From Baekduia alba (GTDB taxonomy: Bacteria > Actinomycetota > Thermoleophilia > Solirubrobacterales > Solirubrobacteraceae): a DNA stretch of 64,000 nt. The DNA is taken from assembly GCF_028416635.1 (NCBI RefSeq), contig NZ_CP114013.1, positions 62,001-126,000 on the forward strand. Reading direction: 5' to 3'. How positions within the stretch are numbered: the stretch's first letter is position 1; every line of letters starts with the position of its first letter. The translations under genes were made by a program, and so were the position numbers. Positions 7,841 to 46,682 of the stretch are shown piece by piece. The notes below the pieces were generated by a model. That model ran no database searches. It was given only the letters and a program-made list of their open reading frames with translations, and had not been told where the DNA came from.

Positions 7841-7868
7841 TCAAGCAGGTCTCATGGGCCGCCGATCA
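7841..7868 (+). promoter_or_regulatory. Sigma-28/sigma-D-like promoter of the flagellin gene
   Basis: TCAAG (7841-7845), 15 bases, then GCCGATCA (7861-7868). The known flagellar sigma-28 class reads roughly TAAA-N15-GCCGATAA. The predicted transcription start is near 7875, which leaves a leader of about 90 bases. The same two boxes recur at five other sites in the window. Confidence 0.8.
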
Positions 7869-8771: not shown

Positions 8772-8806
8772 CTCATACGCAGCACCTTCGTCGGATCTCC
8801 GACGCT

Positions 8807-8832: not shown

Positions 8833-8858
8833 GTCGTTCGGGACCTGACGCCCCGCGT

Positions 8859-8885: not shown

Positions 8886-8894
8886 CGGTGGGGA

Positions 8895-9590: not shown

Positions 9591-9642
9591 CACGACCCAT
9601 CGCCCGGTGTCGGCGCCACCGGCGGACGTCCGCCTCGGCCAG

Positions 9643-14428: not shown

Positions 14429-14456
14429 TCAAGGTGCCTGGACGGATCGCCGATCA
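14429..14456 (+). promoter_or_regulatory. Sigma-28-like promoter of the second giant glycosyltransferase
   Basis: TCAAG (14429-14433), 15 bases, GCCGATCA (14449-14456): both boxes and the spacing are identical to the flagellin promoter. The ATG lies eight bases downstream. The site is in the 63-base gap between divergent purM and the glycosyltransferase. Confidence 0.8.
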
Positions 14457-24767: not shown

Positions 24768-24794
24768 TGATCGGAACCTCCAACGGTGCCTTGA
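24768..24794 (-). promoter_or_regulatory. Sigma-28-like promoter of the Gfo/Idh/MocA gene
   Basis: Minus strand: TCAAG (24794-24790), 14 bases, TCCGATCA (24775-24768); ATG nine bases downstream. The first base of the -10 box differs from GCCGATCA. Confidence 0.65.
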
Positions 24795-32766: not shown

Positions 32767-34160
32767 GCGCCCGCCGCGCGGAGCTGCTGGTCGTCGGCGC
32801 GCTGGCCGTCGCCGCGATCCTCTTCTGGGCGCTCGTCCCGACCTATCCGAACTACGACGCCTACTACCACCTGGCCTGGGGACGGGAGATCGTCGGCGGC
32901 CACCTGCCGGGGTTCGAGGCCTACCAGGCGCCGACGCAGCATCCGCTGTACCTCGCGATCTGCGCGGTCCTGGGCCTGTTCGGGCAGCACGCCGACCGGT
33001 TGCTCGTGCTGTTCACCTGCCTCTGCCACGTCGCGTTCACCTACGCCGTCTACCGGCTGGGGACGGCGATCTGGGACCGGCGCGCCGGGCTGGCGGCCGC
33101 GGTGCTGGCGGGCTCGTCGTTCGCGCTGCTCCTCTACGCGGCGCGCGCCTACGTCGACGAGCCGTTCCTGGCGCTGGTGCTGTGGGCGGCGGCGCTGGAG
33201 GCCGAGCGGACCGTGCGCGGCGATCGCGGCGGCACGGCGCCGGTCTGGGTCCTGCTCGTCCTCGCCGGCCTGCTGCGCCCCGAGGCGTGGCTGCTGGGCG
33301 GCGCCTACTGGCTGTGGCTGGCGTGGCCGTCGCGGCGGCTGGACTGGCGCACGCTGCCGCTCGTCGTCGCGGCGCCGCTGACCTGGTGCGCGATCGACGC
33401 GCTCGTGACCGGCGACCCGCTGTTCTCGCTGCACGCGACCTCCGACCTGGCCGACGAGCTGAACCGCTCGCGCTCGTTCTCCGAGGTCCCCGGCGACTTC
33501 GTCTCGTTCCTGGCCGACACCGCGCGGCTGCCGGTGGCGCTGGCCGCGGTGGCCGGCGCGATCTGGTCGCTGCGCCGCCGCGACTTCCGCGCCGCGCACG
33601 TGCCGCTCGCGCTCTTCCTCGCGGGGTCGTTCACGTTCTTCGCGACGTCGGTCGCGGGCCTGTCCGTGCTCCCGCGCTACCTCACCGTGCCCGCCGTCGC
33701 GCTCTGCCTGCCCGCCGGCTACCTGGTGACGCGCACCCGCGCGCTCTTCGCGCTCGCGGTCGTCGCCGGGGTCGCGTTCGTGATCGTCCGCGCCGACGCC
33801 TTCGACAAGCTCGCCACCGAGCTGCGCTTCATCCGCTCCACCCACGACGACCTCGTCGCGGTGTTGCACACCAAGTCGGTACGCGACGGCCGGGCGTGCG
33901 GGCCGGTGACGCTGCCCAACTACCGCCTCGTCCCCGACACCCGCTGGATCCTCGACGCCAGCCAGAAGCAGGTCGGCTCCCGCTCCGCCGTCCAGCGCAA
34001 GCACGGCGTCGCCCTCCTCCTCGTCGGCGAGAAGCTCCTCCGCCGCTACGGCTTCGCCGACGGAGCGAGCCCGAAGACCAACGGGCCGCCGGACGGGTTC
34101 GTCCGCGGCGACCGTCGCGGTGGCTTCACGGCGTACGTCGGCTGTTCGGGGCGGGGCTGA
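32763..34160 (+). CDS. GT39/PMT-like polyprenyl-sugar-dependent membrane glycosyltransferase
   Basis: The 465-residue protein has about ten membrane helices. The first outer loop holds PNYDAYYHLAWGREI, the Asp/Glu-bearing loop typical of GT-C enzymes, followed by YQAPTQHPLYLAICAVLG. GT-C enzymes use lipid-linked sugars outside the membrane; the family includes protein O-mannosyltransferases, ArnT and arabinosyltransferases. The acceptor cannot be told. Its start overlaps the ligase-like gene, and a convergent GNAT gene ends eight bases downstream. Confidence 0.82.
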   Translation: MSARRAELLVVGALAVAAILFWALVPTYPNYDAYYHLAWGREIVGGHLPGFEAYQAPTQHPLYLAICAVLGLFGQHADRLLVLFTCLCHVAFTYAVYRLGTAIWDRRAGLAAAVLAGSSFALLLYAARAYVDEPFLALVLWAAALEAERTVRGDRGGTAPVWVLLVLAGLLRPEAWLLGGAYWLWLAWPSRRLDWRTLPLVVAAPLTWCAIDALVTGDPLFSLHATSDLADELNRSRSFSEVPGDFVSFLADTARLPVALAAVAGAIWSLRRRDFRAAHVPLALFLAGSFTFFATSVAGLSVLPRYLTVPAVALCLPAGYLVTRTRALFALAVVAGVAFVIVRADAFDKLATELRFIRSTHDDLVAVLHTKSVRDGRACGPVTLPNYRLVPDTRWILDASQKQVGSRSAVQRKHGVALLLVGEKLLRRYGFADGASPKTNGPPDGFVRGDRRGGFTAYVGCSGRG

Positions 34161-34168
34161 GGTGGCCC

Positions 34169-34672
34169 TCAGCGCCGTCCCGTGTCCCTGAGCACGACGA
34201 ACGTCGCGGTGAAGCCCTCGCGCTCGTAGAAGCGCAGGGCGTCGTGGTTGCTGGCCACCGCGGTGAGGGAGAGCTGGGCGTAGCCCCGGCGCTCGACCTC
34301 GTCGCGGACGAGCGCGATGAGGCGGGCGCCGAGGCCGGTGCCGCGGGCCTCGGGCAGGAGGCTGAGGGTCTCGAGGTCCGCCCCGAGGCCGTCGCCCTCC
34401 CACGTCGGCGAGCCCTGCTGCTCGACGCGGACGAACGCGTAGCCGACGGCCCGATGCTGGCGGCGGGCGAGCAGGACGAAGGCGCGCTCGTCGCCGAGCC
34501 ACGCCTCGTACTGCGCTCGGCGACGGCGCCAGGACTCGTCGTCCTCGCGGACCGGGCCGAGGTCGGGCGCGATCTTGTTGTGGTGGTTGCGCAACGCGAG
34601 CCAGAGCGGCCGGACCTGGTCCAGCAGCTCGGCGCGGCCGCGGACGATCTCGATGTCGTCGCTCGCGCTCAC
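34169..34672 (-). CDS. GNAT family N-acetyltransferase
   Basis: The 167-residue protein shows GNAT motif A (LSLLPEARGTGLGARLIALV) and the terminal HDALRFYEREGFTATFVVL. It transfers acetyl from acetyl-CoA to an unknown amine. Its GTG start overlaps the stop of the upstream glycosyltransferase gene (GTGA), so an amino-sugar substrate is conceivable. Confidence 0.87.
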   Translation of the reverse strand: MSASDDIEIVRGRAELLDQVRPLWLALRNHHNKIAPDLGPVREDDESWRRRRAQYEAWLGDERAFVLLARRQHRAVGYAFVRVEQQGSPTWEGDGLGADLETLSLLPEARGTGLGARLIALVRDEVERRGYAQLSLTAVASNHDALRFYEREGFTATFVVLRDTGRR

Positions 34673-35724
34673 GTGATCCCCAGCGCGCGCAGCCGCCGCC
34701 ACAGCGGGTCGTTCTGCGACGACGCCGTCTGCTCCAGCGCCCACGCGCGCAGCTCCAGGTCGGGCGCGGTGCGGCGGCCGGCCTGCTCCACCAGCGCGGC
34801 GGCGAACGCGTCCGCGTCGGCGGCGGTCGTCACGGCGTCCGACCACGTCTTCACGCCCGCCAGCTCCGGCGCGACCGTCCGGCGGCCGAGGCGCGCGTAC
34901 TTGAGGATCCGGTAGGGCAGGCCCGCGTCGTTGAACGGCTCGACCCGGAACGGGACGATGCCGACGTCGGCGCACAGGATCAGGCGGGCGGCCTCCTCGT
35001 CGGTCCGGCTGCTGAGCCACACGAAGCCGGGATGCGCCCGGCACCAGGCGTAGTCCTCGTCGCCCTTGGCCTCGTCGTCGTGCCAGGCGCCGACGAGCAG
35101 CAGCGTCAGCCGCGAGCCGAGGCGCTCGCCGACCGCGCGCAGCAGCGCCCAGTCGGTCCGCCAGCCGAGGTGGCCGAGCGAGACCGCGACGACGTGGTCG
35201 GTCGGGTCGGGTGCCGGGAACGCGTCGGCGGCGAGCGGGACGAGCTGCGCGTCGCGCCCGGCGTCCTGCTCCAGGCGCAGCAGCTCGTCGCTGGCCACGA
35301 ACGTCAGCGACGACAGCGACGCGGCCGCCTCGTGCATCTCGGTCAGCCGCGCGCGCAGGTGCGGCTTGGCATCGTACGCGTGCTCGTAGCGGTCCCAGCG
35401 GCCGTACCAGAGCTCGCAGTCGGGCATCCGCTGCAGGATCGCCCGCGCGAGCAGCACCTGGACGGGGTGGAAGATCACGATGACCTTGGGTCGGTCGCCG
35501 TTGCGGCGCAGCACCTTCAGCAGCCGCCGGGCGACGCGGTTGGCCATGCGGTCGCCCACCGCGTGGGGCAGCCGGGCGAACGCGCCGTACGGGATCCGCG
35601 GCGGATCGACGGCGACCACGCCATCCGCGCGCAGCAGGTCCTCGGCCTGGTCGCGCAGGATGAAGCCCTCCAGCGGACGCGGGAGGAGCAAGAGGCAGAG
35701 GGGACGCAGCTCGGTCGGGGCCAT
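34669..35724 (-). CDS. GT-B fold glycosyltransferase
   Basis: The 351-residue protein resembles GT4/GT1-like transferases of polysaccharide clusters: LLLLPRPLEGFILRDQ at the start, WYGRWDRYEHAYDAK in the N-terminal fold, and SLGHLGWRTDWALLRAVG then ILCADVGIVPFRVEPFNDAGLPYRILKY in the nucleotide-sugar half. The start ATG follows a possible -10 box TACGCT (35742-35737, minus strand) by 12 bases. Sugar and acceptor are unknown. Confidence 0.82.
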   Translation of the reverse strand: MAPTELRPLCLLLLPRPLEGFILRDQAEDLLRADGVVAVDPPRIPYGAFARLPHAVGDRMANRVARRLLKVLRRNGDRPKVIVIFHPVQVLLARAILQRMPDCELWYGRWDRYEHAYDAKPHLRARLTEMHEAAASLSSLTFVASDELLRLEQDAGRDAQLVPLAADAFPAPDPTDHVVAVSLGHLGWRTDWALLRAVGERLGSRLTLLLVGAWHDDEAKGDEDYAWCRAHPGFVWLSSRTDEEAARLILCADVGIVPFRVEPFNDAGLPYRILKYARLGRRTVAPELAGVKTWSDAVTTAADADAFAAALVEQAGRRTAPDLELRAWALEQTASSQNDPLWRRLRALGIT

Positions 35725-35774
35725 GGGGCGGAGCGCAGCGTAGCCAGCGCGCCGTCGGTACCGTGCCCTCGCGC

Positions 35775-35908
35775 ATGGCCGGGCTGCTTCGCCGCGATGC
35801 CGCCCGCGACCCCGATAGCGTGCCGTGGCCGATGGCCGGGCTGCTTCGCCGCGATGCCGCCCGCGACCCCGATAGCGTGCCGTGGCCGATGGCCGGGCTG
35901 CTTCGCCG
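35775..35908 (+). repeat. 57-bp tandem repeat carrying a promoter box and start codon
   Basis: Two identical 57-base units (35775-35831 and 35832-35888) plus the first 20 bases of a third (35889-35908), which becomes the start of the flippase. Each unit begins ATGGCCGGGCTGCTTCGCCG and contains TAGCGT ten bases before the next ATG. The unit equals 19 codons, so all three ATGs are in one frame. Confidence 0.92.
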
Positions 35909-37346
35909 ACTTCTAGCGAGCACGTTCGCCTACCAGGCGCCGAGCATCCTCTCGAGCCTGCTGGCGCTCATCACGCTGCCGCTTTACACGGGCCACCTGA
36001 GCACGGCCGACTACGGCTACGCCGAGAACCTGCTCACGGCGATCATCTTCACGTCGATCCTGCTGCGCTTCGGGATCGGCGAGGCGTTCGTCCGGTTCTG
36101 GTTCGACGACGAGGACCACGCGCGGCGGCTGGACCTCGCCCGCACGGTGACCGCCTGGACGCTGTACGCGTCGACCGCCTTCTGCCTCGTCGCGCTCGTC
36201 TTCGCCGCGCCGCTGTCGCGCCTGATCCTCGTCGACGAGAACGTCGGCCTGATGCGGATCGGCATCTTCGGCCTGTGGGCGTTCACGAACCTGGAGGTCG
36301 CCAACGCGCTGCTGCGCGTCGAGGAGCGGCTCAAGACCTACGTGATCGCGGCGGTCGCCAACATCCTGCTGACGGTCACGCTGACGGTGACGCTCGTCGT
36401 GATCCGCGACGACGGCGCCAACGGCTACGTCTTCGGCAACTACGGCGCGTCGACGGTGATCCTGATCGCCCTGTGGATCGTCATGCGCGACCGCGTGTCG
36501 TTCCGGCCGCCGCGCCGGACCGTCGCGCTGCTGCGTTTCGGCGGCCCGACCGTGCCGGCCGACGCGGCGGCGTTCGCGCTCAACGTCCTGGACCGGACCT
36601 ACCTCATCCACGCGCAGTCCCCGGACGCCGCGGGCCGCTACGGCTTCGCGGCGAAGCTCTCGACGGTCGTGATCGTCGCGGTGCGCGGCTTCCAGGCCGC
36701 GTGGCCGCCGCTGGCGTACTCGGTGACCGACGAGGCGCAGGCCGCGCGGCTCTACGCCCGCGTGACGACGCTGTACGTCGCCGTGACCGGCACCGTGGTC
36801 TGCGGCGTGCTGCTCGTCGGCCGCTGGGCGGTCCGCGCGCTGGCCAGCGACCCCTCGTACTACGGCGCCAGCGCGGCGCTGCCGTGGGTCGCGCTCGGCT
36901 GGGCGCTGTACGGGTTGGTGTTGGTGTTGATCACGGTCGCGGGGCGCGCGAAGGTGACGACCCGGAACTTCCCGGCGACCGCGGCCGGCCTGGTGGTCAA
37001 CGCGGTGTTGTTGGTGACGTTGGTCGGGCCGCTCGGGATCGCGGGCGCCGGCATCGCGCTGTGCGGCGCCTACGTCGTGATCGTGGCCACGTTGTACCTG
37101 TTGACCCGGCACCTGTTCGCGGTCCCGTTCGAGTGGGCGCGCCTGAGCGCCGCGGTGGCCGTCTTCACGGTGATCGGCGTCGGCGGCGAGCTGCTGCTGC
37201 CGACCCAGGGCGCGACCGGGCTGATCACGCGCTTCGCGCTGCTGCTGCTCGTCCCGCCGGCGCTCGTCGCGGCGCGCGTCGTGACGGTCGCCGAGCTCAA
37301 GCGCCTCGGCGAGCTGCGCCGCCGCGGCGAGCCCGCGACGACCTGA
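35889..37346 (+). CDS. Polysaccharide flippase (Wzx/MATE-like)
   Basis: The 485-residue protein has about 14 membrane segments. It begins with the family pattern STFAYQAPSILSSLLALITL then TADYGYAENLL, typical of polysaccharide_synt proteins that flip undecaprenyl-linked oligosaccharides. Three in-frame ATGs exist because the 5' end is a tandem repeat. The third gives a normal-length protein and has TAGCGT ten bases upstream; the others would add one or two copies of MAGLLRRDAARDPDSVPWP. Confidence 0.9.
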   Translation: MAGLLRRLLASTFAYQAPSILSSLLALITLPLYTGHLSTADYGYAENLLTAIIFTSILLRFGIGEAFVRFWFDDEDHARRLDLARTVTAWTLYASTAFCLVALVFAAPLSRLILVDENVGLMRIGIFGLWAFTNLEVANALLRVEERLKTYVIAAVANILLTVTLTVTLVVIRDDGANGYVFGNYGASTVILIALWIVMRDRVSFRPPRRTVALLRFGGPTVPADAAAFALNVLDRTYLIHAQSPDAAGRYGFAAKLSTVVIVAVRGFQAAWPPLAYSVTDEAQAARLYARVTTLYVAVTGTVVCGVLLVGRWAVRALASDPSYYGASAALPWVALGWALYGLVLVLITVAGRAKVTTRNFPATAAGLVVNAVLLVTLVGPLGIAGAGIALCGAYVVIVATLYLLTRHLFAVPFEWARLSAAVAVFTVIGVGGELLLPTQGATGLITRFALLLLVPPALVAARVVTVAELKRLGELRRRGEPATT

Positions 37347-37367
37347 TCCTCGCGCCGGGCCCTGCGG

Positions 37368-37399
37368 CCCGCGGCGTCTCGGCCACGAGGCGCCGCGGG
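37368..37399. terminator. Strong hairpin between convergent genes
   Basis: CCCGCGGCG-T-CTCG, loop GCCA, CGAG-G-CGCCGCGGG: nine plus four base pairs with one T/G mismatch. It lies just after the flippase and before the convergent GT2 gene, so it probably ends both transcripts. No T-run is present. Confidence 0.7.
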
Positions 37400-37603
37400 T
37401 CGGTCGGGTCCGGCGGGGCGCCGCGTCGCCCTTCATCCCCAGCGGACCCAGCGTGCATGCCGATCCACCTCGCGGCGTCCGTTCGACCATAACCCTCGGG
37501 CGAAAGGCGCGGGATGCGATCCAATCCAACATTCGTCCGGGGCCGAACCGAAAATGGGGACGTCAACGCGCCGAAGTTGCGGCGCAATGGGAAGAGCCGG
37601 GAA
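37400..37603. other. Noncoding gap between convergent genes
   Basis: No convincing gene on either strand. The part near 37480-37570 is less GC-rich than the surroundings (for example ATCCAATCCAACATTCG and CCGAAAATGGGG). I see no riboswitch, tRNA or further terminator I can support. Confidence 0.5.
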
Positions 37604-38542
37604 CTAGAGCGTCGGGCCGCCGCGGTTGAACTCGTGGGCCGCTTCGCGCAGGCCCTCGCCGCGCGAGGGGCGCAGCGTCGCGGTGACGTGGCGCCAGTAG
37701 CGCTTCGGGTCGTGCCCGGGGGCGACCGTGGCGACCCCGGCCCGAACGGCGTACGCCCACGCGGTGAGCAGCCGGACGACGAACGCGGCGCCCGCCGAGT
37801 GGTGCTTGCGCATGTAGCGGTCGCGGTTGCGGGAGAGCTCGACGATGCGCCGCTCCGGCACCGCGCCGGTCGACAGCTGCTCGTGGTGGATCGCCTCGGC
37901 GGTCGGCACCCAGAGCGTGTGCCAGCCGGCGTCGGCCAGGCGGCGGCAAAAGTCGACCTCGTCGGAGTAGACGAAGAACTGCGGGTCGAACCAGCCGATC
38001 TCGCGCGCGGCGTCGCGGCGGACGAGCAGCGCGGCGGACTGCGCCCAGTCGACGCGGCGCGTGCGGCGCCCGCGCGACTGGACCGTGAGCCGCTTGTGCA
38101 GGAACAGCGCGCCGACCAGCGCGGTCGCGGGCGTCGGGAAGCGCCAGGCCGACGGCTGCACGCGGCCATCGGGGCGCAGCAGCTTGGCGCCGGCCGCGGC
38201 GGCCTCGGCGTCCTCGACCAGCGCGCGGTGCAGCGTGGCGGTCGCGCCGGGCCGCAGCTCGGAGTCCTCGTTGAGCAGCAGGCAGAACCGGCCGCGCGCG
38301 CGCTGGAGCAGGTGGCTGTCGTTCTCGCCCTTGCCGCGGCGCTGGTCGAGCGCGACGACCTCGGTCACGGTCGCGTGGCCCCTCGCCGCGCCGGCGGAGC
38401 CGTCGGTCGAGGCGTTGTCGAGGACGAGCACCTCGGTCGGGAACGGCAGCGCCTCGCGCTCGGCCGCGAGCGCGTCGAGGCAGTGGACCAGCAGCTCGCG
38501 CTGGTCGGTGTTCACGACGCAGAAGGAGACCTCGACGCCCAA
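37604..38542 (-). CDS. GT2 family glycosyltransferase (rhamnosyltransferase-like)
   Basis: The 312-residue protein has the GT2 fold: VSFCVVNTDQRELLVHCLDAL, EVLVLDNASTDGSAG, a LNEDSELRPG region for the DxD position, and FFVYSDEVDFCRRLADAGW, typical of WbbL-like rhamnosyltransferases. TTG start, six bases after the GH2 stop. It is the last gene of the carrier-protein operon. Confidence 0.88.
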   Translation of the reverse strand: MGVEVSFCVVNTDQRELLVHCLDALAAEREALPFPTEVLVLDNASTDGSAGAARGHATVTEVVALDQRRGKGENDSHLLQRARGRFCLLLNEDSELRPGATATLHRALVEDAEAAAAGAKLLRPDGRVQPSAWRFPTPATALVGALFLHKRLTVQSRGRRTRRVDWAQSAALLVRRDAAREIGWFDPQFFVYSDEVDFCRRLADAGWHTLWVPTAEAIHHEQLSTGAVPERRIVELSRNRDRYMRKHHSAGAAFVVRLLTAWAYAVRAGVATVAPGHDPKRYWRHVTATLRPSRGEGLREAAHEFNRGGPTL

Positions 38543-38548
38543 GGCGCG

Positions 38549-40825
38549 TCAGGGTTTCAGATCCGGCGCGACGACCGGTGACTCACCGATGAGGTTGAGC
38601 GCTGTGACGGTCGCTCCGGCGAGGCGGGCGCCGGGCGTGAGCGGGCGCAGCGCGATCGTGCGCGGGACGCCGGGCGTGAGCGTGAAGGCGTCGTCGGCCG
38701 GGGCGAAGCCGGGGGCAGAGAGGCGCACGCCCCAGGCGACGCGGTCGGTGGCGAGCGTCACCGCGCGGTCGCCGTCGTGCGTCGCGGTCAGCGTGAACGC
38801 GGTCGGCTCCGTCGGCGGCCCGAGCGGGAAGTGGGTGGCCTGGGCGAGTGGCGCGCCGGCGACGCGCAGCGTCGCAACGACCGTGTCATGGGCGGGGGAG
38901 CCGAAGCGGTAGGCGTAGGAGACGTCGAGGAAGCGGCCGAGGAGGCCTTCGACGTTGACGTGCTCGGCAGCGTGGGGCGGGAGGCGCAGCGCCGTCGTCG
39001 CCTCGGCGATCGCGCGCGTGCCGTCGGCGAGGACCGCGACCTCGAGCTCGGCGTCCAGGGCCTCCGGGCCGTCGTTGGCGACGTGGACGTCGAGGCCGTT
39101 CATGCCCTCGTCGACGATCCACACGGCACGCGGCGCGAGCGCGCGGCGCAGGTGGGCGAGCGCGACCTTCGGCCGCCCCGCGGCGTCGAGCACGCCCCAG
39201 CCCGCGCCGGGGCGGAGGTCGCGCGACCACAGCACGATGCCGCCGCCGCACGGCGAGGCGCGCCGCCGCCACTCGCCGAAGACCAAGGCCATCATCTCGC
39301 CGCTGACCTCGCGGCTGAGCGCGAGGTAGCGCTCGCGGTCGACGTCCGCCGCCGTCACGCCGTAGCGCTCGCGGAGGTAGTGGTCGCGCACGTCGGCGAA
39401 GTCCCAGTCGGCGCCGACGTCGCGCATGACGCCCTCGCCGTCGGCGACGTCGCCGTCCGGGACGTTCGCGAACGCCAGGCACTCCGAGGCGAACCGGACA
39501 CCGGCCGTCCGCGCGTCGCTGAGCGGGCGCCGGTAGCCGCCGACGCCGAAGTAGTTGGCGACCCCGCTGCCCGGGTGGAACGGCAGCGGCCCGCCGCTCG
39601 GCGCGCTCGGGACGTAGGGCACGTCCACGCCGGCCGCACGCGCCAGCCCGGGCAGCAGCCCTCCGAACAGCTCGCCGCGGCCGATCCCGTCTCCACCCAC
39701 CCCGACCCCGAACATCGCCGCCTGCTGCTCGACCTCGCTGTTGCCGCACAGCGCGACGAGGCTCGGCCGGCCGCCGACGCGCGCGAGCACGGCGCGCGCC
39801 TCGTCGACCACCTGCGCGCGGAAGTCCTCGTCCTCGATCGGGTAGTCGAGGTTGGCGAACATGAAGTCCTGCCAGACCAAGAGCCCCAACTCGTCGCAGA
39901 GGTCGTGGAACGTGACGTCCTCGTAGACGCCGATCCCCGGGATCCGGACGAGGTTGATCCCGGCGTCGCGCAGCGTCTCGAGCGTCGCGCGGACCTCGCC
40001 CTCGGGCACCGGCGTCCACACGACGCCGCGGGCGAAGACCGGGACGTCGTTGACCGCGAGCGCGGCGACGTCGTCCGACAGCGTGCGGAAGCCGGTGCGC
40101 CCGACGCCGACAGGTTGCCCGTCGTCGAGGACCAAGGACACGTCGTGCAATGCCGGCGTGCCGTGCGTGTGCGGCCACCACCGGGCCGGATCGACCACCC
40201 GCACTTCTCCGGTAAAGCGGCCGTCCTCGCCCGCCGCCAGCTCGGCCCGGGCGTCGCCCACCACCGCCTCCACCCGCGCGGCCGCGCCCGCCAGCCGCAC
40301 CGACACCGCGACGACGCCGTCGCCGCCCTCGATCCGCGGCCGCAGCGTGACGTCCTCGACCGTCGCGGCGCTCGCCGCACGCCGCACGAGCCACACCGGC
40401 CGCCACGGGCCGACCGTCGGCGGCCCCGGCGCGAACCCGGGCGCCCGGCCCACCACGCTCGTGCGGACGAAGCGCAGCGCGCCGCCGTTCTCCACCACCT
40501 TGGTCCGCCACCGCTGGCGCGGGCGCCTGGGCCGGTCGGCCAGCAGCTCCTCCTCGCTCGCGCAGCGGATCGTCAGCGTGTTGACCCCCACCAGCAGCGC
40601 GGTCACGTCCGCCTCGGCGCCGGCGAACATCGAATCGCCGCGCGCGAGCTCGGTGCCGTTCAGCTCCGCCGTCCACGCGGTCGCGACGCCGTCGAACACG
40701 AGCGACACCCGCTCGCCCGCCGGGCCGTCCGCGGCGTCGAAGGCCAGCGTGAACGTCTGCCCCGACCGCGTGAAGCCGTCGAGCCGCCGGACCGCGATCC
40801 CGTCCTGCTCAGGCCAGCGCGGCAT
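38549..40825 (-). CDS. Glycoside hydrolase family 2 (beta-mannosidase-like)
   Basis: The 758-residue protein has the GH2 order: jelly-roll sugar-binding domain (about 20-160), Ig-like domain (about 155-250), and TIM barrel (about 255-570) with DAGINLVRIPGIGVYED. The predicted acid/base is E364 in GNSEVE (GNNENE in beta-mannosidases) and the nucleophile E448 in FASECLAF. It has no signal peptide, so it should act in the cytoplasm. It overlaps the DUF1839 gene by 17 bases in the carrier-protein operon. A synthetic or trimming role on an intracellular glycoside is possible; substrate unknown. Confidence 0.87.
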   Translation of the reverse strand: MPRWPEQDGIAVRRLDGFTRSGQTFTLAFDAADGPAGERVSLVFDGVATAWTAELNGTELARGDSMFAGAEADVTALLVGVNTLTIRCASEEELLADRPRRPRQRWRTKVVENGGALRFVRTSVVGRAPGFAPGPPTVGPWRPVWLVRRAASAATVEDVTLRPRIEGGDGVVAVSVRLAGAAARVEAVVGDARAELAAGEDGRFTGEVRVVDPARWWPHTHGTPALHDVSLVLDDGQPVGVGRTGFRTLSDDVAALAVNDVPVFARGVVWTPVPEGEVRATLETLRDAGINLVRIPGIGVYEDVTFHDLCDELGLLVWQDFMFANLDYPIEDEDFRAQVVDEARAVLARVGGRPSLVALCGNSEVEQQAAMFGVGVGGDGIGRGELFGGLLPGLARAAGVDVPYVPSAPSGGPLPFHPGSGVANYFGVGGYRRPLSDARTAGVRFASECLAFANVPDGDVADGEGVMRDVGADWDFADVRDHYLRERYGVTAADVDRERYLALSREVSGEMMALVFGEWRRRASPCGGGIVLWSRDLRPGAGWGVLDAAGRPKVALAHLRRALAPRAVWIVDEGMNGLDVHVANDGPEALDAELEVAVLADGTRAIAEATTALRLPPHAAEHVNVEGLLGRFLDVSYAYRFGSPAHDTVVATLRVAGAPLAQATHFPLGPPTEPTAFTLTATHDGDRAVTLATDRVAWGVRLSAPGFAPADDAFTLTPGVPRTIALRPLTPGARLAGATVTALNLIGESPVVAPDLKP

Positions 40826-41744
40826 CCAGCTCGCCGGTGGCCTGCTCCCACGCGGCGGCGAGGCCGTCGACGACCGGCGCGGGGTCGAAGACCTTGCGCC
40901 GCGCCAGCTTCAACGACAACAACTTGCTCGCGCCGACGATGTCGTCCATCGCACCCGCCGCGCCCTCGCCGTCCGGGCCCAGCAGCCAGCGCACGTGCGC
41001 GGCCAGCAGGTCGAAGCCCGAGCCGACCATCCGGACGGTCGCGAACGCGTACGCGTGGTAGCCCGCCGGGTCGCCGGCCAGCAGCGCCGGCAGGTCGCGC
41101 TCCAGCGCCGCGCCGAAGCGGGCGAACGGGTTCGTCGCCGGGCGGCGGGCCAGGTGGTGGACGAGCAGCGCGCGGGCCGCCGCGCGCAGCGCGGCGCCCT
41201 CCAGCGCCGGGCCGGCGTCGAAGCGCACGAGCTCGGTGTACGGAGGCAGCTCGCCGCCGCCGGAGAAGACGCCACGGTAGTCCTCGCCGCTCAGCTCGTA
41301 GCGCCCGGCATTGTGGAAGTAGCGCAGCCACTGCGCGTCGCGGTCGATCGCGTCGACCGCCACCGAGGTCTTGACGTGGTCGGTCCGGTACGCGGTCGCC
41401 GCCGTGTCCGGCAGCCACCACGAGTCGAGCTCGACGATGATCGTGCGCCCGGCCGCCAACTGGTCGGCGATCTGGTCGGGCAGCGGCCGGTAGGGCTGCA
41501 TCTCGTGGATGTCGATCCCGTACAGCCGCTCCAGGTCGCCCGGCGCGGGCTTGAAGAACGTCCACTGGTCGCCCTCGAAGTCCATGCGCACGTTGATGCC
41601 CAGCGCGGCCAGCGGCTCCAGCCCGCGCGCGTGCAGTAGCTCGACGACGACGTCGGTGTAGCAGTTGGTCTCGACGTAGGTGCGACCCGGCTGGTGAACC
41701 GGGTGCGGCGTGTAGGACGACACCTCGGCGCCCACCGCGCTCAC
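40809..41744 (-). CDS. DUF1839 family protein
   Basis: The 311-residue protein matches DUF1839 in outline: early YVETNCYTDVVVELLHARGLE, then MDFEGDQWTFFKP, YGIDIHEMQPYRPL, and VELDSWWLPDTAATAYRTDH. The latter resembles peptidase-C39/NRPS-accessory BtrH-like N-terminal domains, which suggests acyl transfer or hydrolysis. The GTG start overlaps the stop of the amino acid:carrier-protein ligase. From memory, DUF1839 recurs beside such ligases in proteobacteria; this could be a transferase moving the aminoacyl group from the carrier to its acceptor, which is inference. Confidence 0.72.
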   Translation of the reverse strand: MSAVGAEVSSYTPHPVHQPGRTYVETNCYTDVVVELLHARGLEPLAALGINVRMDFEGDQWTFFKPAPGDLERLYGIDIHEMQPYRPLPDQIADQLAAGRTIIVELDSWWLPDTAATAYRTDHVKTSVAVDAIDRDAQWLRYFHNAGRYELSGEDYRGVFSGGGELPPYTELVRFDAGPALEGAALRAAARALLVHHLARRPATNPFARFGAALERDLPALLAGDPAGYHAYAFATVRMVGSGFDLLAAHVRWLLGPDGEGAAGAMDDIVGASKLLSLKLARRKVFDPAPVVDGLAAAWEQATGELDAALA

Positions 41745-42685
41745 GCCTCGGCGCCCCACAGCAGCGCGCGCACGTCCGCCGGCCAGGCGGCCACGTCGAG
41801 CCCGTGCGTGCGCAGCAGCGCGAGCACGATCCGCTCGTGGCCGAAGCCCAAGCACGCGGTGTGCGCGTCGCCGCCGTCGGCGGTCGTGATGCCGTACAGC
41901 GCGGAGAAGTGGTCCTGGTGGTAGTTGAAGGACGCGATCGCCGTCGGCTCGGGATCGGTGATCTCCACCAGGATCTCGAACTTCAGCGCCTGCTCGCGCT
42001 GGGACGCGGCCATCATCCGGCCCGAGCGCCCGAAGAACGGGTCGTTGGCCACGTCGAAGCGGGCGGCCAGGCCCAGGTCCACCAGCAGCTGCAGCGCGCG
42101 GTCGCGCCAGCCGTCGCGCCAGGTCTGCACGGTCTCGGGCTCGGCGATCCGGACCAGCTCGCGCATGTGGAACATCTGCAGCCGCGCCGGGTCGCCGGAG
42201 GGCTCGTGGCGGAACGCGTAGGACGCGCCCGGGTCGATCGTCAGGCCGCCGGCCGGCAGCGTGCCGCGGCGCGCGACCGCGGGGTAGACCGGGTAGCAGA
42301 CGGCCGGGGTGAGGCAGAGCTCGCTCTGGTGCTGGTGCTCGGACCAGTCCTCGTGGCGCCCGGCGACCTCGGCCATGCCGCGCGCCTGGGCCTCGGTGCC
42401 CTCGAACGCGAAGACCGAGCCGGCCAGGTGCGGGAAGTTCTCCAGGTAGCCGAGATCCTCGATCTGCTGGCGCGGCAGGACCGGCGGGAAGCGCAGGACC
42501 TCCGGAGTCTCACCCGCGGCGAGCGCGGCGCGCGTGACGTAGGCGTCGAAGCGCTGGCGGACGTCCTCGTAGTCGCTGCCGCGGCCGTAGACGCCGGGCA
42601 CGCCCGACGGGATCAGGTGCCCGGCTTCGACCAAGGCCTCCATCAACTGCGCCTGATCCGCAGACGCCTCGCGGTACGCGGCCAT
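41741..42685 (-). CDS. Amino acid:[carrier protein] ligase (seryl-tRNA synthetase-like)
   Basis: The 314-residue protein is a class II synthetase core without the tRNA-binding arm. Motif 2 is FRHEPSGDPARLQMFHMREL (158-177) and motif 3 contains CLGFGHERIVLALLR (278-292). C130, E176 and C278 fit the zinc ligands known from Bradyrhizobium Gly:CP ligase (C131, E176, C279), which activates glycine or alanine and loads it on a carrier-protein phosphopantetheine instead of tRNA. The carrier gene lies two genes upstream. AAGGAGG (42696-42702, minus strand) precedes the ATG. The amino acid cannot be read from sequence. Confidence 0.88.
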   Translation of the reverse strand: MAAYREASADQAQLMEALVEAGHLIPSGVPGVYGRGSDYEDVRQRFDAYVTRAALAAGETPEVLRFPPVLPRQQIEDLGYLENFPHLAGSVFAFEGTEAQARGMAEVAGRHEDWSEHQHQSELCLTPAVCYPVYPAVARRGTLPAGGLTIDPGASYAFRHEPSGDPARLQMFHMRELVRIAEPETVQTWRDGWRDRALQLLVDLGLAARFDVANDPFFGRSGRMMAASQREQALKFEILVEITDPEPTAIASFNYHQDHFSALYGITTADGGDAHTACLGFGHERIVLALLRTHGLDVAAWPADVRALLWGAEA

Positions 42686-42689
42686 GGCG

Positions 42690-43865
42690 CTAGACCTCCT
42701 TGGCGATCAGCAGCAGGCCGGCGTTGGTCTGGTGGATGCGCTCGTTGGCGACCATCAGCGACGCGGACATCGAGTCGCGCAGGTGGCGCCCGATGCTGAA
42801 CGGCGTGTCGTTCTTGAAGCCGACGATGCCGCAGACGCCCATCGCCTGCTGGCAGACGCGCGGCGCCTGCTCGGAGGCGGCGAGCTTGAGGTTGTTGAAG
42901 CGCAGGGCGAAGGCCATCGTCGACAGCCGCTCGCGGTCGGCCTCGGCCTCGGTCCAGTCCTGCATCGCGCTGTGGACCTCGGCGCGCAGCAGCGACAGCT
43001 GGGTCATGACGTGCGACAGCTTCATCGCGGCCGGGACCGGCTCGCCGGGCGCGCGGCGCGCGGCGGCGCGCACGAAGGCGCGGGCGCGGTCGAACGCGTC
43101 GGTCGCGATCCCGAGCCAGATGTGCGACCAGAGCAGGTGGCTGATCGGGACCATCGACTCGGTGGAGATCGACGGGAACGGCGCGCCCATGACCTGCGCG
43201 ACCGGCACCTCGGCGCGCACGACGTAGCCGGGCGAGCACGTGCCGCGCATGCCGAGCGGGTCCCACGTGCCGGTCGGCTCCAGCGTCGTGTCGCTTTGGC
43301 GGGCCAGCACCGCGACCTGGTCGCCGGGGCCGGCGTCCGGGCTGGCGCGCAGCGTCACCAGCAGGTCGTCGGCGTAGGCGCCGTAGGAGACGGTCGGCGC
43401 CTGCTTCTCGAACGTCGCGCGGGCCGGGTCGCCGTCGATGGGCGTGAGCGCGGCGACCGAGCGGCTCATGTCGCCGCCGGTGCCGACCTCGGAGGTCACG
43501 GAGGCGATCAGGCGCTGGTCGGCGACCAGCTCGCGCAGGTAGTCCTCGAACCACGGCGAGCCGTCGAGGTGGCGGACGATCGTCGCCACCTGGATCTGGT
43601 GCATGGCGAAGACCATGGCGCTGGCGCCGCAGCGGCGGCCGAGCACGAAGCAGGCCTGGGCGACGGCCTCGAAGGAGATGCCGTCCCCGCCGTACTCGGC
43701 CGGGACGAGCGCCGAGAGCGCGCGCTGCTCGCGCAGCGCGTCGATGGTCTCGGTGGGGAAGCGGGCGCCGCGGTCGACGTCGTCGGCGTGGACGGCCGCG
43801 ATCGCGTCGGCGAGCTGGTCGATGCCGGCGAGGAAGGCGGCGTCGCGGTCGGCGGCGACGGTCAT
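42690..43865 (-). CDS. Acyl-CoA dehydrogenase-like flavoprotein
   Basis: The 391-residue protein has the three-part acyl-CoA dehydrogenase fold: helical N-terminus (FPTETIDALREQRALSALVPAEYGGDG), middle beta domain (SVTSEVGTGGDMSRSV, then PTGTWDPLGMRGTCSPGY) and C-terminal helical bundle. In carrier-protein pathways such enzymes oxidise aminoacyl thioesters, as in pyrrole formation from prolyl-carrier protein. The ATG overlaps the carrier gene stop (ATGA), which suggests that it acts on the aminoacyl-carrier. The catalytic base is not clear to me. Confidence 0.83.
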   Translation of the reverse strand: MTVAADRDAAFLAGIDQLADAIAAVHADDVDRGARFPTETIDALREQRALSALVPAEYGGDGISFEAVAQACFVLGRRCGASAMVFAMHQIQVATIVRHLDGSPWFEDYLRELVADQRLIASVTSEVGTGGDMSRSVAALTPIDGDPARATFEKQAPTVSYGAYADDLLVTLRASPDAGPGDQVAVLARQSDTTLEPTGTWDPLGMRGTCSPGYVVRAEVPVAQVMGAPFPSISTESMVPISHLLWSHIWLGIATDAFDRARAFVRAAARRAPGEPVPAAMKLSHVMTQLSLLRAEVHSAMQDWTEAEADRERLSTMAFALRFNNLKLAASEQAPRVCQQAMGVCGIVGFKNDTPFSIGRHLRDSMSASLMVANERIHQTNAGLLLIAKEV

Positions 43866-44110
43866 GCGACCTGCACGTCGAGCTGGCTGAGGGCGGACGA
43901 GATCGAGCCGACCGACTCGAAGACGCTGCGCTTGAGCATCTCGTCGGGGAACTCCACGTCGTAGGCGTCCTCGAGGGCGAGCATGACGTTCACGCTCGCG
44001 TGCGAGGTCATTCCGGCCTCGTACAGGCTGTCGTCGTCGGACAGCGTCGTGACATCGACGCTCAGGCGACCGTGCTCGGAGACGATCTCACGGACTGCGG
44101 GGAAAGACAC
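43862..44110 (-). CDS. Acyl/aminoacyl carrier protein
   Basis: The 82-residue protein is a small acidic four-helix carrier. The phosphopantetheine site is YEAGMTSHASVNVMLALED, with S36 in the position of the usual DSL serine. The Thr-Ser-His context departs from fatty-acid ACP and fits carriers of the amino acid:carrier-protein ligase type. GTG start, eight bases after a sigma-28-like -10 box. First gene of a tightly packed six-gene operon; acpS, which could load its cofactor, lies 60 bases upstream. Confidence 0.86.
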   Translation of the reverse strand: MSFPAVREIVSEHGRLSVDVTTLSDDDSLYEAGMTSHASVNVMLALEDAYDVEFPDEMLKRSVFESVGSISSALSQLDVQVA

Positions 44111-44118
44111 GCTCCTGA

Positions 44119-44146
44119 TTATCGGTGCCCCGCCGCAAGATCTTGA
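44119..44146 (-). promoter_or_regulatory. Sigma-28-like promoter of the carrier-protein operon
   Basis: Minus strand: TCAAG (44146-44142), 15 bases, ACCGATAA (44126-44119), then eight bases to GTG. The -35 box and spacing equal those of flagellin, and CCGATAA matches the classical sigma-28 -10 core. Confidence 0.75.
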
Positions 44147-44170
44147 CCGCTGGATGAAAGGGTCGCCGGC

Positions 44171-44536
44171 CTATGTCCCCACGACGACCGCCGCGGCGTA
44201 CTCGTCTTCGTGGGTGAAGCTCAGCGCCAGCTCGGTGAGGCCCGCCTGACGGGCCAGCGCGGCGGCGGCTCCGTGCAGCGCGATCGCGGGCGCCGCGTCC
44301 GGGTTGCGGACCACCTCGATCGCCAGCCACGGCAGCGCGTCGTCGGCGCGCGGTTGCAGGACTTTCATGGTCGCCTCCTTGGCCGCGAAGCGCGCGGCGA
44401 GGCGCAGCGGGTCGCCGCCGCACTGCTCCTGCTCGGCCGGCGTGTAGACGCGGTCCAGGTACCGCGCGCCGTGCTCGGCGAGCGCGTCCTGCACCGTCGC
44501 GGCCTTGACGAGGTCGATCCCGACGCGGAGGGGCAT
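44171..44536 (-). CDS. acpS: Holo-[acyl-carrier-protein] synthase
   Basis: Moves 4'-phosphopantetheine from CoA to a carrier serine. The 121-residue protein has the family's Mg and CoA residues: D8 in GIDLV and E54 in RFAAKEATMKVL, with the late LSFTHEDEYAAAVVV. ATG has TAGGCT eight bases upstream (44550-44545, minus strand). It may be the general AcpS, but its place directly before a carrier gene suggests it also serves that carrier. Confidence 0.92.
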   Translation of the reverse strand: MPLRVGIDLVKAATVQDALAEHGARYLDRVYTPAEQEQCGGDPLRLAARFAAKEATMKVLQPRADDALPWLAIEVVRNPDAAPAIALHGAAAALARQAGLTELALSFTHEDEYAAAVVVGT

Positions 44537-44544
44537 CGTCGGCG

Positions 44545-44561
44545 AGCCTACGGCGTAGGGT
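44545..44561. promoter_or_regulatory. Divergent leaderless promoters of acpS and a GNAT gene
   Basis: TAGGCT on the minus strand (44550-44545) is eight bases before the acpS ATG. TAGGGT on the plus strand (44556-44561) is seven bases before the GNAT GTG. The two boxes are five bases apart, so only one polymerase could bind at a time. Confidence 0.6.
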
Positions 44562-44568
44562 CAGGCGC

Positions 44569-45057
44569 GTGACCGCATCCCTCCACCTCGAGCCCTGGAG
44601 CGACGCGGACGCGGGCCTGCTCGCGGCGCTGAACGGCGACGAGGCGCAGATGGCGCACGTCGGCGGCGCGGAGACGGCGGAGAAGATCGCCGAGCGCCAG
44701 GCGCGCTACGTGGTCGACCCGGGGCAGTACGCCGTGGTCGACGGCGACGGCGCGCGCACCGGCTGGGTCGGCTTCTGGGAGCGCGAGTGGCGCGGCGCGA
44801 CCGTCTACGAGATCGGCTGGTCGATCCTGCCGGCCTTCCAGGGCCGCGGGCTGGCGTCGGGTGGGACGCGGCTGGCGATCGCGGAGGCCCGCGCGGCCGG
44901 CGGCGCCGCCGCGATCCACGCCTTCCCGGGCGTCGACAACGCCGCCTCCAACGCGGTCTGCCGCTCTGTCGGCTTCACGCTGGTCGAGGCCGGCCTGGAG
45001 CTCGAGTACCCGCCGGGGACCACGATGGCCTGCAACGACTGGCGCCTGGCGCTCTAG
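44569..45057 (+). CDS. GNAT family N-acetyltransferase
   Basis: The 162-residue protein belongs to the RimJ/RimL-like GNATs: YEIGWSILPAFQGRGLASGG gives the acetyl-CoA loop, and NAASNAVCRSVGFTLVEAG the C-terminal motif. GTG start with a TAGGGT box seven bases upstream. It converges with a frameshifted gene whose stop overlaps its own by three bases. Substrate unknown. Confidence 0.87.
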   Translation: MTASLHLEPWSDADAGLLAALNGDEAQMAHVGGAETAEKIAERQARYVVDPGQYAVVDGDGARTGWVGFWEREWRGATVYEIGWSILPAFQGRGLASGGTRLAIAEARAAGGAAAIHAFPGVDNAASNAVCRSVGFTLVEAGLELEYPPGTTMACNDWRLAL

Positions 45058-45505
45058 TTGGGCTGGCTCGGGCGGCGGTAGGTCAGCCCGAAGTCGCGGA
45101 CGTAGGCGCCGTCGCGGTGGGCCTCCCAGGCGCCGTCGATCGTCGTGCCGTCGGCGCTGAGCGTCGCGCGGAAGCGCTGCGCGAAGTCCGGGGCCGGCGG
45201 GTGGCGCTCGAGCGTCCAGAGGCCGTCGGCGAAGGTCATGGCGTACTGGCGGACCACGCCGCGCGAGTCGAAGTAGTACTGCAGGAACGTGCCGTCGGGG
45301 TTGGCCCCGATCAGCGCGTGCAGATCGGGCGCGACGGCGACGCCCGGCACCTCGGCGCGCTGGAGCAGGAAGGCGCCGCCCAGGACCGGCTCGAAGCGCG
45401 TCGTCGCCGGGGACCGCCGGTCGGCGGCAGCTCGGGCGCCTCGACGATCCACTCGCCCAGCAGCGGCGCGAGCGCGGCCAGGCCGTCCTTCGGATGATCG
45501 GTCAT
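45054..45505 (-). pseudogene. Frameshifted DUF1579-like small protein
   Basis: The first part reads MTDHPKDGLAALAPLLGEW in one frame; the conserved rest (TRFEPVLGGAFLLQRAEVPG, QYYFDSRGVVRQYAMTFADG, TIDGAWEAHRDG) is in another. One missing base around 45410-45425 (plus numbering), near a GGCGGTCCCCGG run, would restore a protein of about 150 residues resembling a DUF1579/lipocalin-like fold. It may be a true recent mutation or a sequencing error. Confidence 0.7.
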
Positions 45506-45569
45506 GGGGCTGAGACGACGCGGGCGCGCCGGACTGAGCGGTCGCGGGGCCCGGTAGCGTGGCTCCCCG

Positions 45570-46682
45570 GTGCGAGTAGACGTCGTCGACCCCTCCGCGT
45601 TCACGCCGCCCTACGACCGCGCCCTCGCGGCCGCGCTCGCTCGCGCGGGCGCGCAGGTCCGGCTGGTCACGAGCCGCTTCGCCTACGGCGACGTCCCGCC
45701 GGCCGAGGGCTACGGGGTCGACGAGCGGTTCTACCGGCGCGCCGCGGGCGTCGGCGCGCCCGGCTCGAAGGCGCGGCTGGTCGCCAAGCTCGCCGAGCAC
45801 GTGCCCGAGATGGTGGCCTACGCGCGCGGGGCCGCGCGCGCCGCCGACGTCGTGCACTTCCAGTGGCTGACCGTCCAGCCGCTCGACGTCCACCTGCTGC
45901 CGCGCGGCGTCCCGACCGTGCTGACCGCCCACGACGTCCTGCCGCGCGAGCCGCGCGCGGGCCAGCTCCGCGCCCAGCGGCGCCTCTACGAGCGCGTCGA
46001 CCACGTCGTCGTCCACTCCGCGCACGGCGCCGCCCGGCTCACCCGCGAGCTGGGGATCGACCCGGCGCGCGTGACGGTCATCCCGCACGGCGCGTTCACG
46101 CACCTCGCGGCGCTCGACGCCCGCCTGCCGCCCGAGCTGGCGCCGGGGCCGGACACGCCCGTCGTCGCGCTCCCCGGCCTGCTGCGCCGGTACAAGGGGG
46201 TCGACGTCCTCCTCGACGCGTGGCGCCGCTTCGGCGCCGACCCGCCGGGCGAGCTGTGGATCGTCGGGATGCCGCGCATGCCGCTGCCCGACCCGGCCAC
46301 GCTGCCGCCCGGCGTCCGGATCGTCGCGCGCTTCGTCGACGACGCCGAGCTGGCCGGCGTCCTGCGCCGCGCCGACCTGATCGCGCTGCCCTACCGCGCG
46401 ATCGACCAGTCCGGCGTCCTCTACGCCGCGCTCGGCCTCGGCCGCCCGCTGCTGCTGAGCGCCGTCGGGGGCTTCCCGGAGGTCGCGGCGACCGGTGCTG
46501 CAGAGCTGGTGGCGCCCGACGACCCGGCCGCGCTGCACGCCGCGCTGGCGACCCTGCTGGCGGACCCGCGGCGCCGCGCCGCGCTGGCGGCCAGCGCGCA
46601 GGAGGCGGCGCGCACGACCTACTCCTGGGACGCCATCGCGCAGCAGCATCTGGCCCTGTACGCCATGCTCAGGCGCTCGTGA
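45570..46682 (+). CDS. GT4 family glycosyltransferase
   Basis: The 370-residue protein has the GT-B pattern: VHFQWLTVQPLDVHLLPRG and VLTAHDVLPREP in the N-domain, RVTVIPHGAFTHL, then LPGLLRRYKGVDVLLDAWRR and the ADLIALPYRAIDQSGVLYAA donor site. GTG start nine bases after TAGCGT (45555-45560). First gene of a four-gene operon with a GT2, a phosphoglycosyltransferase and an ATP-grasp enzyme. Sugar unknown. Confidence 0.9.
   Translation: MRVDVVDPSAFTPPYDRALAAALARAGAQVRLVTSRFAYGDVPPAEGYGVDERFYRRAAGVGAPGSKARLVAKLAEHVPEMVAYARGAARAADVVHFQWLTVQPLDVHLLPRGVPTVLTAHDVLPREPRAGQLRAQRRLYERVDHVVVHSAHGAARLTRELGIDPARVTVIPHGAFTHLAALDARLPPELAPGPDTPVVALPGLLRRYKGVDVLLDAWRRFGADPPGELWIVGMPRMPLPDPATLPPGVRIVARFVDDAELAGVLRRADLIALPYRAIDQSGVLYAALGLGRPLLLSAVGGFPEVAATGAAELVAPDDPAALHAALATLLADPRRRAALAASAQEAARTTYSWDAIAQQHLALYAMLRRS

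Follow-up and report, generated by a model that had tools for sequence, protein, structure and literature searches.

A conserved aminoacyl carrier protein cassette under a flagellar-type promoter in Baekduia alba and its predicted role in decorating a surface polysaccharide

The amino acid:[carrier protein] ligases, which resemble seryl-tRNA synthetase (SerRS), raise the question of what their aminoacyl carrier proteins are for, a role that has been open since 2010. We consider this question for an operon at 44110-37604 on the minus strand of the window, the 64,000-nucleotide stretch of the Baekduia alba genome (NZ_CP114013.1, positions 62,001 to 126,000) that was analysed. The operon encodes a carrier protein (CP), an acyl-CoA-dehydrogenase-like flavoprotein (ACAD), the ligase, a DUF1839 protein, a GH2 beta-mannosidase-like enzyme and a GT2 glycosyltransferase. 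It is the local copy of a conserved CP-flavoprotein-ligase-DUF1839-GH2 cassette, often accompanied by a double alpha/beta hydrolase, so that the system picked out in the initial annotation is real and conserved, with a role that is a prediction. We think it on balance probable that the cassette forms a cytoplasmic pathway in which a carrier-bound aminoacyl group is attached to an amino sugar of a surface polysaccharide, and that it is co-expressed here with flagella; the acceptor is likely to be a polysaccharide that is secreted and whose expression accompanies motility.

Scanning one genome per species returned 299 ligase relatives, and our counts cover the best 80 loci, which lean towards close relatives because they were picked from the 299 with the window's own ligase. 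Near the ligase, tblastn found ACAD in all 80 loci, CP in 78, DUF1839 in 77 and GH2 in 73; these counts were taken from tblastn because composition-based calling of open reading frames (ORFs) loses genes (ligase ORFs were called in 53 of the 80), and some of the misses are contig ends, for example in L020, L032, L056, L064 and L085. All five core genes are present in 71 of the 80 loci, with the same order and strand in 70 of these 71 (the exception is L026), and the 80 loci span Actinomycetota, Alpha- and Betaproteobacteria, Myxococcota and one metagenome-assembled genome (MAG) labelled Chloroflexi. The window's GT2 can be ruled out as a core gene: it has a tblastn match near the ligase in one locus of the 80 (L022), does not adjoin the cassette there, and is best seen as a local addition. 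Among 199 genomes sampled from the class, on which the ligase, DUF1839 and flagellin counts are all assumed to be based, 7 were found to have the ligase and 3 to have DUF1839, all 3 among the 7.

The sixth gene encodes about 600 residues in two alpha/beta-hydrolase halves and has a match in 62 of the 80 loci, counted at any place in the locus and not just beside the cassette. The three proteins tested match both exosortase-A-associated hydrolase 1 (TIGR03100) and hydrolase 2 (TIGR03101) in a single chain, with 57-87 bits against curated cut-offs of 168 and 203, which places them below both, as relatives and not members of these families. A 39% homologue of the double hydrolase is encoded elsewhere in the B. 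alba genome (L143, G000:C1:4752000-4771000) with Wzz, Wzy and GT4, at the genome's second exopolysaccharide-type locus. Two other loci deserve mention for their composition or setting. A variant at L024 (about 6261-10933) consists of ACAD, ATP-grasp, esterase, CP and ligase, with no DUF1839 or GH2 matches, and its ATP-grasp may replace DUF1839 as the amide-forming enzyme; L180, in the fungal endosymbiont Mycetohabitans endofungorum, is a complete six-gene cassette on a megaplasmid.

In the window, coordinates and Pfam/NCBIfam assignments agree with the gene order, families and tight packing first described. CP (44110-43862; PF00550, NCBIfam PRK07081) overlaps ACAD (43865-42690; PF02771/PF00441) by 4 bases, and ACAD is separated by 4 bases from the ligase (42685-41741; NCBIfam PRK07080, PDB 4h2w/3mey). 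The ligase in turn overlaps the papain-like DUF1839 gene (41744-40809; PF08893, 314 bits) by 4 bases, provided that DUF1839 starts at the GTG at 41744; DUF1839 overlaps GH2 (40825-38549; PF22666/PF00703, 6byc at 1.2e-36) by 17 bases, and GT2 (38542-37604; PF13641/PF00535) follows after a gap of 6, all on the minus strand. A gene for an acpS-like phosphopantetheinyl transferase (44536-44171, minus; PF01648 8e-15) had been placed directly upstream, and it is indeed the upstream neighbour, but it stands 60 bases away, and because this gap holds the promoter TCAAG (-35) N16 CCGATAA (-10) (44146-44119, minus), acpS is probably outside the operon transcript. Its product likely primes the carrier protein, and 20 of the 80 loci have an acpS match no more than 9 kb from the ligase.

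The identities of the ligase and its carrier are well defined. The ligase exceeds the PRK07080 curated cut-off (405 bits vs 357) and matches 4h2w, which we take to be the solved Bradyrhizobium enzyme, at 2e-78. When aligned to 4h2w, its residues C130, E176 and C278, presumably the zinc ligands of the SerRS-like core, are invariant among 54 aligned ligases (gaps uncounted), which upholds the zinc site proposed earlier. CP likewise exceeds the PRK07081 cut-off (104 bits vs 72), and its phosphopantetheine serine, Ser36, is invariant in 46 aligned rows (gaps uncounted). We infer from these sequences that CP is the dedicated partner of the ligase, and loading of an amino acid on the carrier is predicted. 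The amino acid loaded by the studied ligase relatives is Gly or Ala, and Mocibob's work of 2010 and 2013 reportedly dealt with this ligase system in Bradyrhizobium and Agrobacterium. The initial annotation knew of no established pathway role for this family, and that still holds: the available part of PMC9437257 called the role of the aminoacyl carrier protein unknown in 2022, and in the literature searched, some of it available in part, we recognised neither an experimental pathway for the ligase nor flagellar control of it.

The strongest new evidence on what follows loading is the predicted structure of DUF1839. An AlphaFold2 model made with 50 cassette sequences (49 of 74 matches plus the window's protein) has a mean predicted local distance difference test (pLDDT) score of 93.6. 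Its best structural match is CcbD (Z 20.6, root-mean-square deviation 3.2, 284 residues, 13% identity), and AziU2/U3 (Z 19.0) and CtaG (Z 18.0) come next, with the following row at 7.5. According to their PDB titles, CcbD was crystallised in one complex with a PCP (carrier) domain and in a separate crystal with methylthiolincosamide, and the accessible portion of PMC4351081 describes the lincosamide condensing system with CcbD/LmbD as forming the amide bond between an amino acid and an amino sugar, the role of LmbD being still open in 2015. With CcbD as the best match of the model, a carrier-to-sugar step is therefore plausible. The DUF1839 alignment has C28, T or S126, and H144 in 50 of 50 rows each. 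This papain-like family is described as having a C(T/S)H triad in the part of PMC10318531 available, which also suggests, from context, acyl-CoA-dependent glycan processing at the cell wall by DUF1839; we take C28, T/S126 and H144 to match the published triad, the assignment of positions being our own. We predict from the model that DUF1839 is an aminoacyl-S-carrier:amine transferase using Cys28, T126 and H144.

The flavoprotein is harder to place. The ACAD model, from an alignment of 47 of 79 ACAD matches plus the window's protein, has a pLDDT of 94.6, and the conserved flavin-region residues are kept in the alignment. At the places corresponding to MCAD-376 and IVD-254, presumably the catalytic Glu positions of acyl-CoA dehydrogenases, we provisionally read Ile/Val and Ser; at the first of these places Thr is found in 7p98, the best match. 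In the profile search dehydrogenases (95 bits) score little above KijD3, an amino-sugar N-oxygenase (87 bits), and in the fold comparison dehydrogenases, ColB1 and oxygenases all fall at Z 39-43 among the listed rows and are not separated. ColB1 is by its PDB title an enzyme of ACAD fold that oxidises a carrier-bound cysteine. A plain dehydrogenase is doubtful, but the fold comparison is indecisive on this point, and ACAD is possibly an oxidase or monooxygenase of a carrier-bound amino acid. For GH2, E364 and E448, which we take to be the acid/base and nucleophile Glu, are invariant in 70 aligned rows, and hydropathy shows no N-terminal hydrophobic stretch.

The promoter suggests when the operon is expressed. 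A flagellin -35 box and a CCGATAA -10 had been reported before the operon, and the two-box site stands up to comparison: its boxes are those of the window's flagellin promoter (TCAAG-N16-CCGATCA at 7841..7866, plus, for the gene from 7965), and such sites cluster in the same block of the genome. The heptamer CCGATAA by itself occurs as by chance (1 in the window vs 0.76 expected) and was ruled out as evidence. The two-box site with CCGATAA at a spacing of 13 to 16 is found once in 5.86 Mb. The broader pattern TCAAG-N15/16-CCGAT has 43 sites genome-wide, the reversed pattern having 0 (N16) and 7 (N15), and 9 of the 43 lie within a block of 79.5 kb that begins at the first flagellin and ends at the operon; with the two defining sites removed, 7 of 41 fall in this block vs 0.56 expected (p 1e-6, for block limits chosen after the sites were seen). 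These seven stand 5′ of an FlgF/G-like gene, a 117-residue unknown ORF, cheW, fliO, a GT4+GT2 glycosyltransferase and an oxidoreductase, with one inside a coding frame. The glycosyltransferase site is at 14429..14454 (plus), 10 bases 5′ of the ATG (14465) of the GT4+GT2 protein, and the oxidoreductase site, TCAAG-N15-CCGATCACCGG, is at 24770..24794 (minus), 5′ of the GFO/IDH/MocA oxidoreductase gene. Because the shared sites cluster in the block, transcription of the operon in this genus probably accompanies that of the flagellar genes. Boxes and spacing held in common with flagellar genes of the same genome make a flagellar-type (sigma-28-type) promoter credible, and co-regulation of the operon with flagella in this genus likely.

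Comparison with other cassette loci shows both conservation and drift of this site. The two nearest relatives (L016, L032) retain both boxes around a spacer that has diverged, and the exact site is limited to the window and two close relatives, all three of whose genomes have flagellin. A looser site precedes the cassette in L022, L027, L030 and L031 (TTAAG-N16-GCGA) and in L028 (TAAAG-N17-CCGA), and two looser sites lie farther upstream in L053 and L059; the upstream stretches are short in L001 (78 bases) and L005 (53). The loose pattern occurs in 8 of 22 actinobacterial loci vs 3 of 222 other ORF upstreams, and in 0.6% of shuffles; the p-value of this contrast is not a fair test because the pattern was picked after reading those upstream sequences. 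The 60 other loci have neither the strict nor the loose site within 150 bases of the cassette.

The surroundings of the operon suggest a polymer as acceptor. The window's cassette is placed between genes for a Wzy-like polymerase/ligase (31261-32766, plus; PF04932 1.3e-17) and a Wzx-like flippase (35763-37346, plus; PF01943/PF13440) on one side and an initiating bacterial sugar transferase, a phosphoglycosyl transferase (47778-48380, plus; PF02397 7e-62), on the other, and a GT4 glycosyltransferase gene lies at 45570-46682 (plus; PF13692/PF13439). The glycan block also holds a Polysacc_synt_2 enzyme, the GFO/IDH/MocA oxidoreductase (24758-23775, minus) and two very large multi-domain glycosyltransferases, GT2+GT4+GT4 (9559-13365) and GT4+GT2 (14465-18049), encoded soon after flagellin and a CHAP-domain gene. 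Before the block the window has flagellar genes: the ORF 2103-4988 contains FlhA, and a gene for an SRP54-type GTPase (4988-6472) and flagellin (from 7965) come after it. The 5′ end of wzx contains a perfect 57-bp tandem repeat of 2.4 copies (35775-35908); because each unit opens with ATG, wzx has several possible in-frame starts, and the true one is probably near 35889, after the repeats. The polysaccharide block further includes a protein with an FlgD-type Ig domain and a DMFA2_C domain (29009-31282) and, between this and a LytR_C protein, a ComA-like phosphosulfolactate synthase (28114-28866; 3e-86). No RNA element reached the gathering score in 34000-46000.

Polysaccharide neighbours of the 80 loci were sought with 20 seed proteins, which gave a Wzx match in 11 and a GT4 match in 20. 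GH5, Wzx and GT4 adjoin the cassette in Pannonibacter, Stappia, Mesorhizobium and Kaistia loci, and GH26-like and GT4 genes do so in one actinobacterial clade. Three GH26-like genes stand in a row downstream of the cassette in L022, L027, L030 and L031 (one Pfam-checked at 41 bits, the rest by phmmer); such runs, with GH2 and the GH5 genes of other loci, may hint at a mannan-type glycan. Since neighbours differ between lineages, the cassette appears to be self-contained and joined to polysaccharide loci in some of them.

Several findings weigh against a polysaccharide-decorating pathway under flagellar control. A profile of the 50 DUF1839 sequences found no PDB chain at E up to 5, so that the relation to CcbD is a likeness of fold and not family membership, and a CcbD-like fold alone does not show any reaction. 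DUF1839 is missing from 4 of the 7 ligase genomes in the class sample, and the window's operon has no double hydrolase next to it. No Wzx/Wzy was seen, by seeds or annotation, near the cassettes of Azospirillum, Undibacterium, Methylobacterium and Mycetohabitans, where few flanking proteins were Pfam-scanned (4, 2 and 1 in the Undibacterium, Azospirillum and Methylobacterium loci); because of the first three of these genera, the acceptor need not be a polysaccharide. As to the promoter, the glycan stretch has three sites besides that of the operon; one of them is in a coding frame, and the other two alone give p 0.02. The strict site is found in 3 of 22 actinobacterial-type loci, the window and its two close relatives, and in 0 of 60 others. 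Among the 16 flagellin starts that a regular expression located in 38 flagellin loci of other genomes, 5 have TCAAG or TAAAG, N15 and CCGA(T) upstream; two more have CTCAAG-N15-ACGAT by eye, one more was seen separately, and the rest have none.

These points bear unequally on the possible alternatives. The main rival is that the acceptor is a soluble amino-sugar metabolite, aminoglycoside-like or mycothiol-like, with GH2 deglycosylating it in maturation and the glycan locus a mere neighbour. This would fit the Azospirillum, Undibacterium and Mycetohabitans cassettes, the lack of a signal peptide-like stretch in GH2 and the fold relatives of DUF1839: AziU2/U3 are presumably azinomycin pathway proteins, and CcbD and CtaG come from the lincosamide and closthioamide antibiotic pathways (available parts of PMC4351081 and PMC6772006). 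It fits less well with the Wzx, Wzy and glycosyltransferase neighbours in the window and in several alphaproteobacteria, or with a sixth gene resembling exosortase-linked hydrolases. Moreover, surface genes lie within 10 kb even at the stand-alone loci, namely, in Mycetohabitans (L180), genes annotated for an ArnT-type lipid A transferase and a member of the LTA synthase family, and, in Azospirillum brasilense Sp7, GT9 and a sulfotransferase, and we regard a soluble acceptor as a serious but rather unlikely alternative. Supply of a non-ribosomal peptide instead of a sugar was proposed by the discoverers of the ligase, as told in the available part of PMC2922099, and CtaG is termed a peptidyl transferase in that of PMC6772006; this would leave the constant beta-mannosidase-like GH2 neighbour (73 of 80 loci) unexplained and is the least probable of the alternatives, with very little chance of being right.

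The initial annotation had proposed a filament model, with the aminoacyl group attached to a glycan of flagellin or some other filament protein, and here the comparison of neighbourhoods cuts both ways. The flagellar-type promoter, on the operon and on two further glycan-block genes, and the large multi-domain glycosyltransferases soon after flagellin speak for this model, as does co-occurrence above expectation: in the class sample flagellin is present in 5 of 7 ligase genomes vs 29 of 192 others (34 of 199 overall; p 0.002, kinship uncorrected). However, 29 of the 34 flagellin genomes lack the ligase, and G121 and G142, of the same family as B. alba, have the ligase with flagellin and FlhA both unmatched. 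Flagellin was checked in the genomes of 50 of the 80 loci (completeness not stated; L044, L047-L058, L060, L065, L067, L068, L071-L073, L075-L081, L083, L085 and L092 were left out) and found in 37; of the 13 without it, 11 also lack FlhA and 2 have it, which rules out flagellin as a required partner. Because such cassette genomes exist, the chemistry is not tied to flagella and flagellin is unlikely as a general target. Maf-type glycosylation of flagellin finds no support either, since PF01973 had 0 matches in the B. alba genome (95.9% complete), the control matching only in four archaea and so not gauging sensitivity to bacterial Maf, and Wzx/Wzy suggest a lipid-linked exported glycan. Flagellin or the filament as target is therefore not supported, and we consider flagellin as acceptor improbable. 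Occurrence of the operon with the same promoter in non-flagellated relatives, which would speak against the filament model, was found only loosely: the weaker, similar site of L028 (G211) and L030 (G213) belongs to MAGs, of completeness not given, without flagellin or FlhA matches. These 2 of the 5 loci with the looser sister-clade site, the chance-level count of CCGATAA alone and the absence of the strict site from other loci tested are what would be expected if the likeness of the promoter were accidental, with the operon under another sigma factor or constitutive. The boxes kept while spacers diverged in the window and two relatives, the clustering of the full site in the flagellar/glycan block and the boxes shared by some relatives' flagellin genes argue the other way, and we hold an accidental likeness to be unlikely.

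The surface polysaccharide pathway that we favour can be set out as a sequence of predicted steps. AcpS would place phosphopantetheine on the carrier protein, and the ligase, a family member by sequence, would adenylate a small amino acid and load it on the carrier. The flavoprotein may next oxidise the aminoacyl group while it is tethered; for this step an oxidase or monooxygenase is more likely than a classical dehydrogenase. Cys28 of DUF1839, whose modelled fold and conserved triad invite this role, would accept the aminoacyl group and form an amide with a sugar amine, as thought for CcbD. The beta-mannosidase-like GH2 and the local GT2 would trim or build the glycan, and the neighbouring Wzx/Wzy may export it. 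Because the operon, a glycosyltransferase and an oxidoreductase share the promoter type of flagellin, the FlgF/G-like gene, CheW and FliO, glycan synthesis probably goes along with the flagellar programme. Of the transfer proposed in the initial annotation, passage from carrier to sugar thus remains plausible, with the CcbD-like DUF1839 fold and the Wzy, Wzx, glycosyltransferase and phosphoglycosyl-transferase neighbours in its favour, and flagellin as the acceptor does not. In its fullest form, the ligase, carrier, flavin oxygenase and papain-like transferase would modify an exported polysaccharide with an oxidised aminoacyl amide, and this activity would be turned on by the flagellar regulon, giving swimming cells or their filaments a coat of aminoacylated glycan; we offer this as speculation that is probably wrong in at least some part.

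The chemistry of the earlier proposal is a rediscovery, because PMC2922099 proposed it in 2010. In the part of that paper available, a note in proof examines the ligase neighbourhood and predicts that an amino acid is joined through an amide to an amino sugar of the cell surface; it names an uncharacterised protein as amide ligase and regards the redox enzyme as probably a monooxygenase. Four points appear to be new and were not met in the literature searched, as far as its available parts go: evidence from structure for the transfer step, the six-gene cassette as defined and counted, its connection with exosortase-type hydrolases and, in this lineage, a flagellar-type promoter. The CcbD-like fold of DUF1839 points to the missing transfer step and the type of acceptor, the promoter points to a growth state for study, and together they make an orphan enzyme family experimentally approachable. 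If the fullest form of the pathway holds, it would be a further route, besides dlt and MprF, by which bacteria alter their surface charge with amino acids.

The cassette can be compared with several known systems. CcbD and LmbD, the latter of which we take to be the condensing enzyme of the lincosamide system, resemble DUF1839 in fold over nearly the full length, and the CcbD system links a carrier-bound amino acid with an amino sugar; DUF1839 differs in its 13% identity and its C(T/S)H triad, and no antibiotic cluster is seen at the window's locus. CtaG is alike in fold (Z 18.0) and in its acyl carrier donor, whereas the acceptors differ. BtrH, likened here by description, is papain-like and dependent on an acyl carrier protein according to the available part of PMC10318531, and has a different acceptor. 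Exosortase A (XrtA) exopolysaccharide loci carry hydrolases 1 and 2, both of which the cassette's sixth gene resembles in one chain, but its matches are below the cut-offs, and the window's operon lacks the gene. Another counterpart is the Bradyrhizobium/Agrobacterium system, which shares with the window the ligase family, a dedicated carrier, a redox enzyme, an uncharacterised protein and a glycosidase; unlike it, the operon of B. alba has a flagellar-type promoter, its own GT2 and a neighbouring acpS, lies inside a Wzx/Wzy locus beside flagellar genes and has no double hydrolase. In outline the cassette also recalls the Dlt system for D-alanylation of teichoic acids, in which an amino acid is activated, loaded on a carrier and moved onto a surface polymer, although the cassette's ligase has the class II aminoacyl-tRNA synthetase fold and is not of DltA type, and DUF1839 would stand in the place of the membrane protein DltB.

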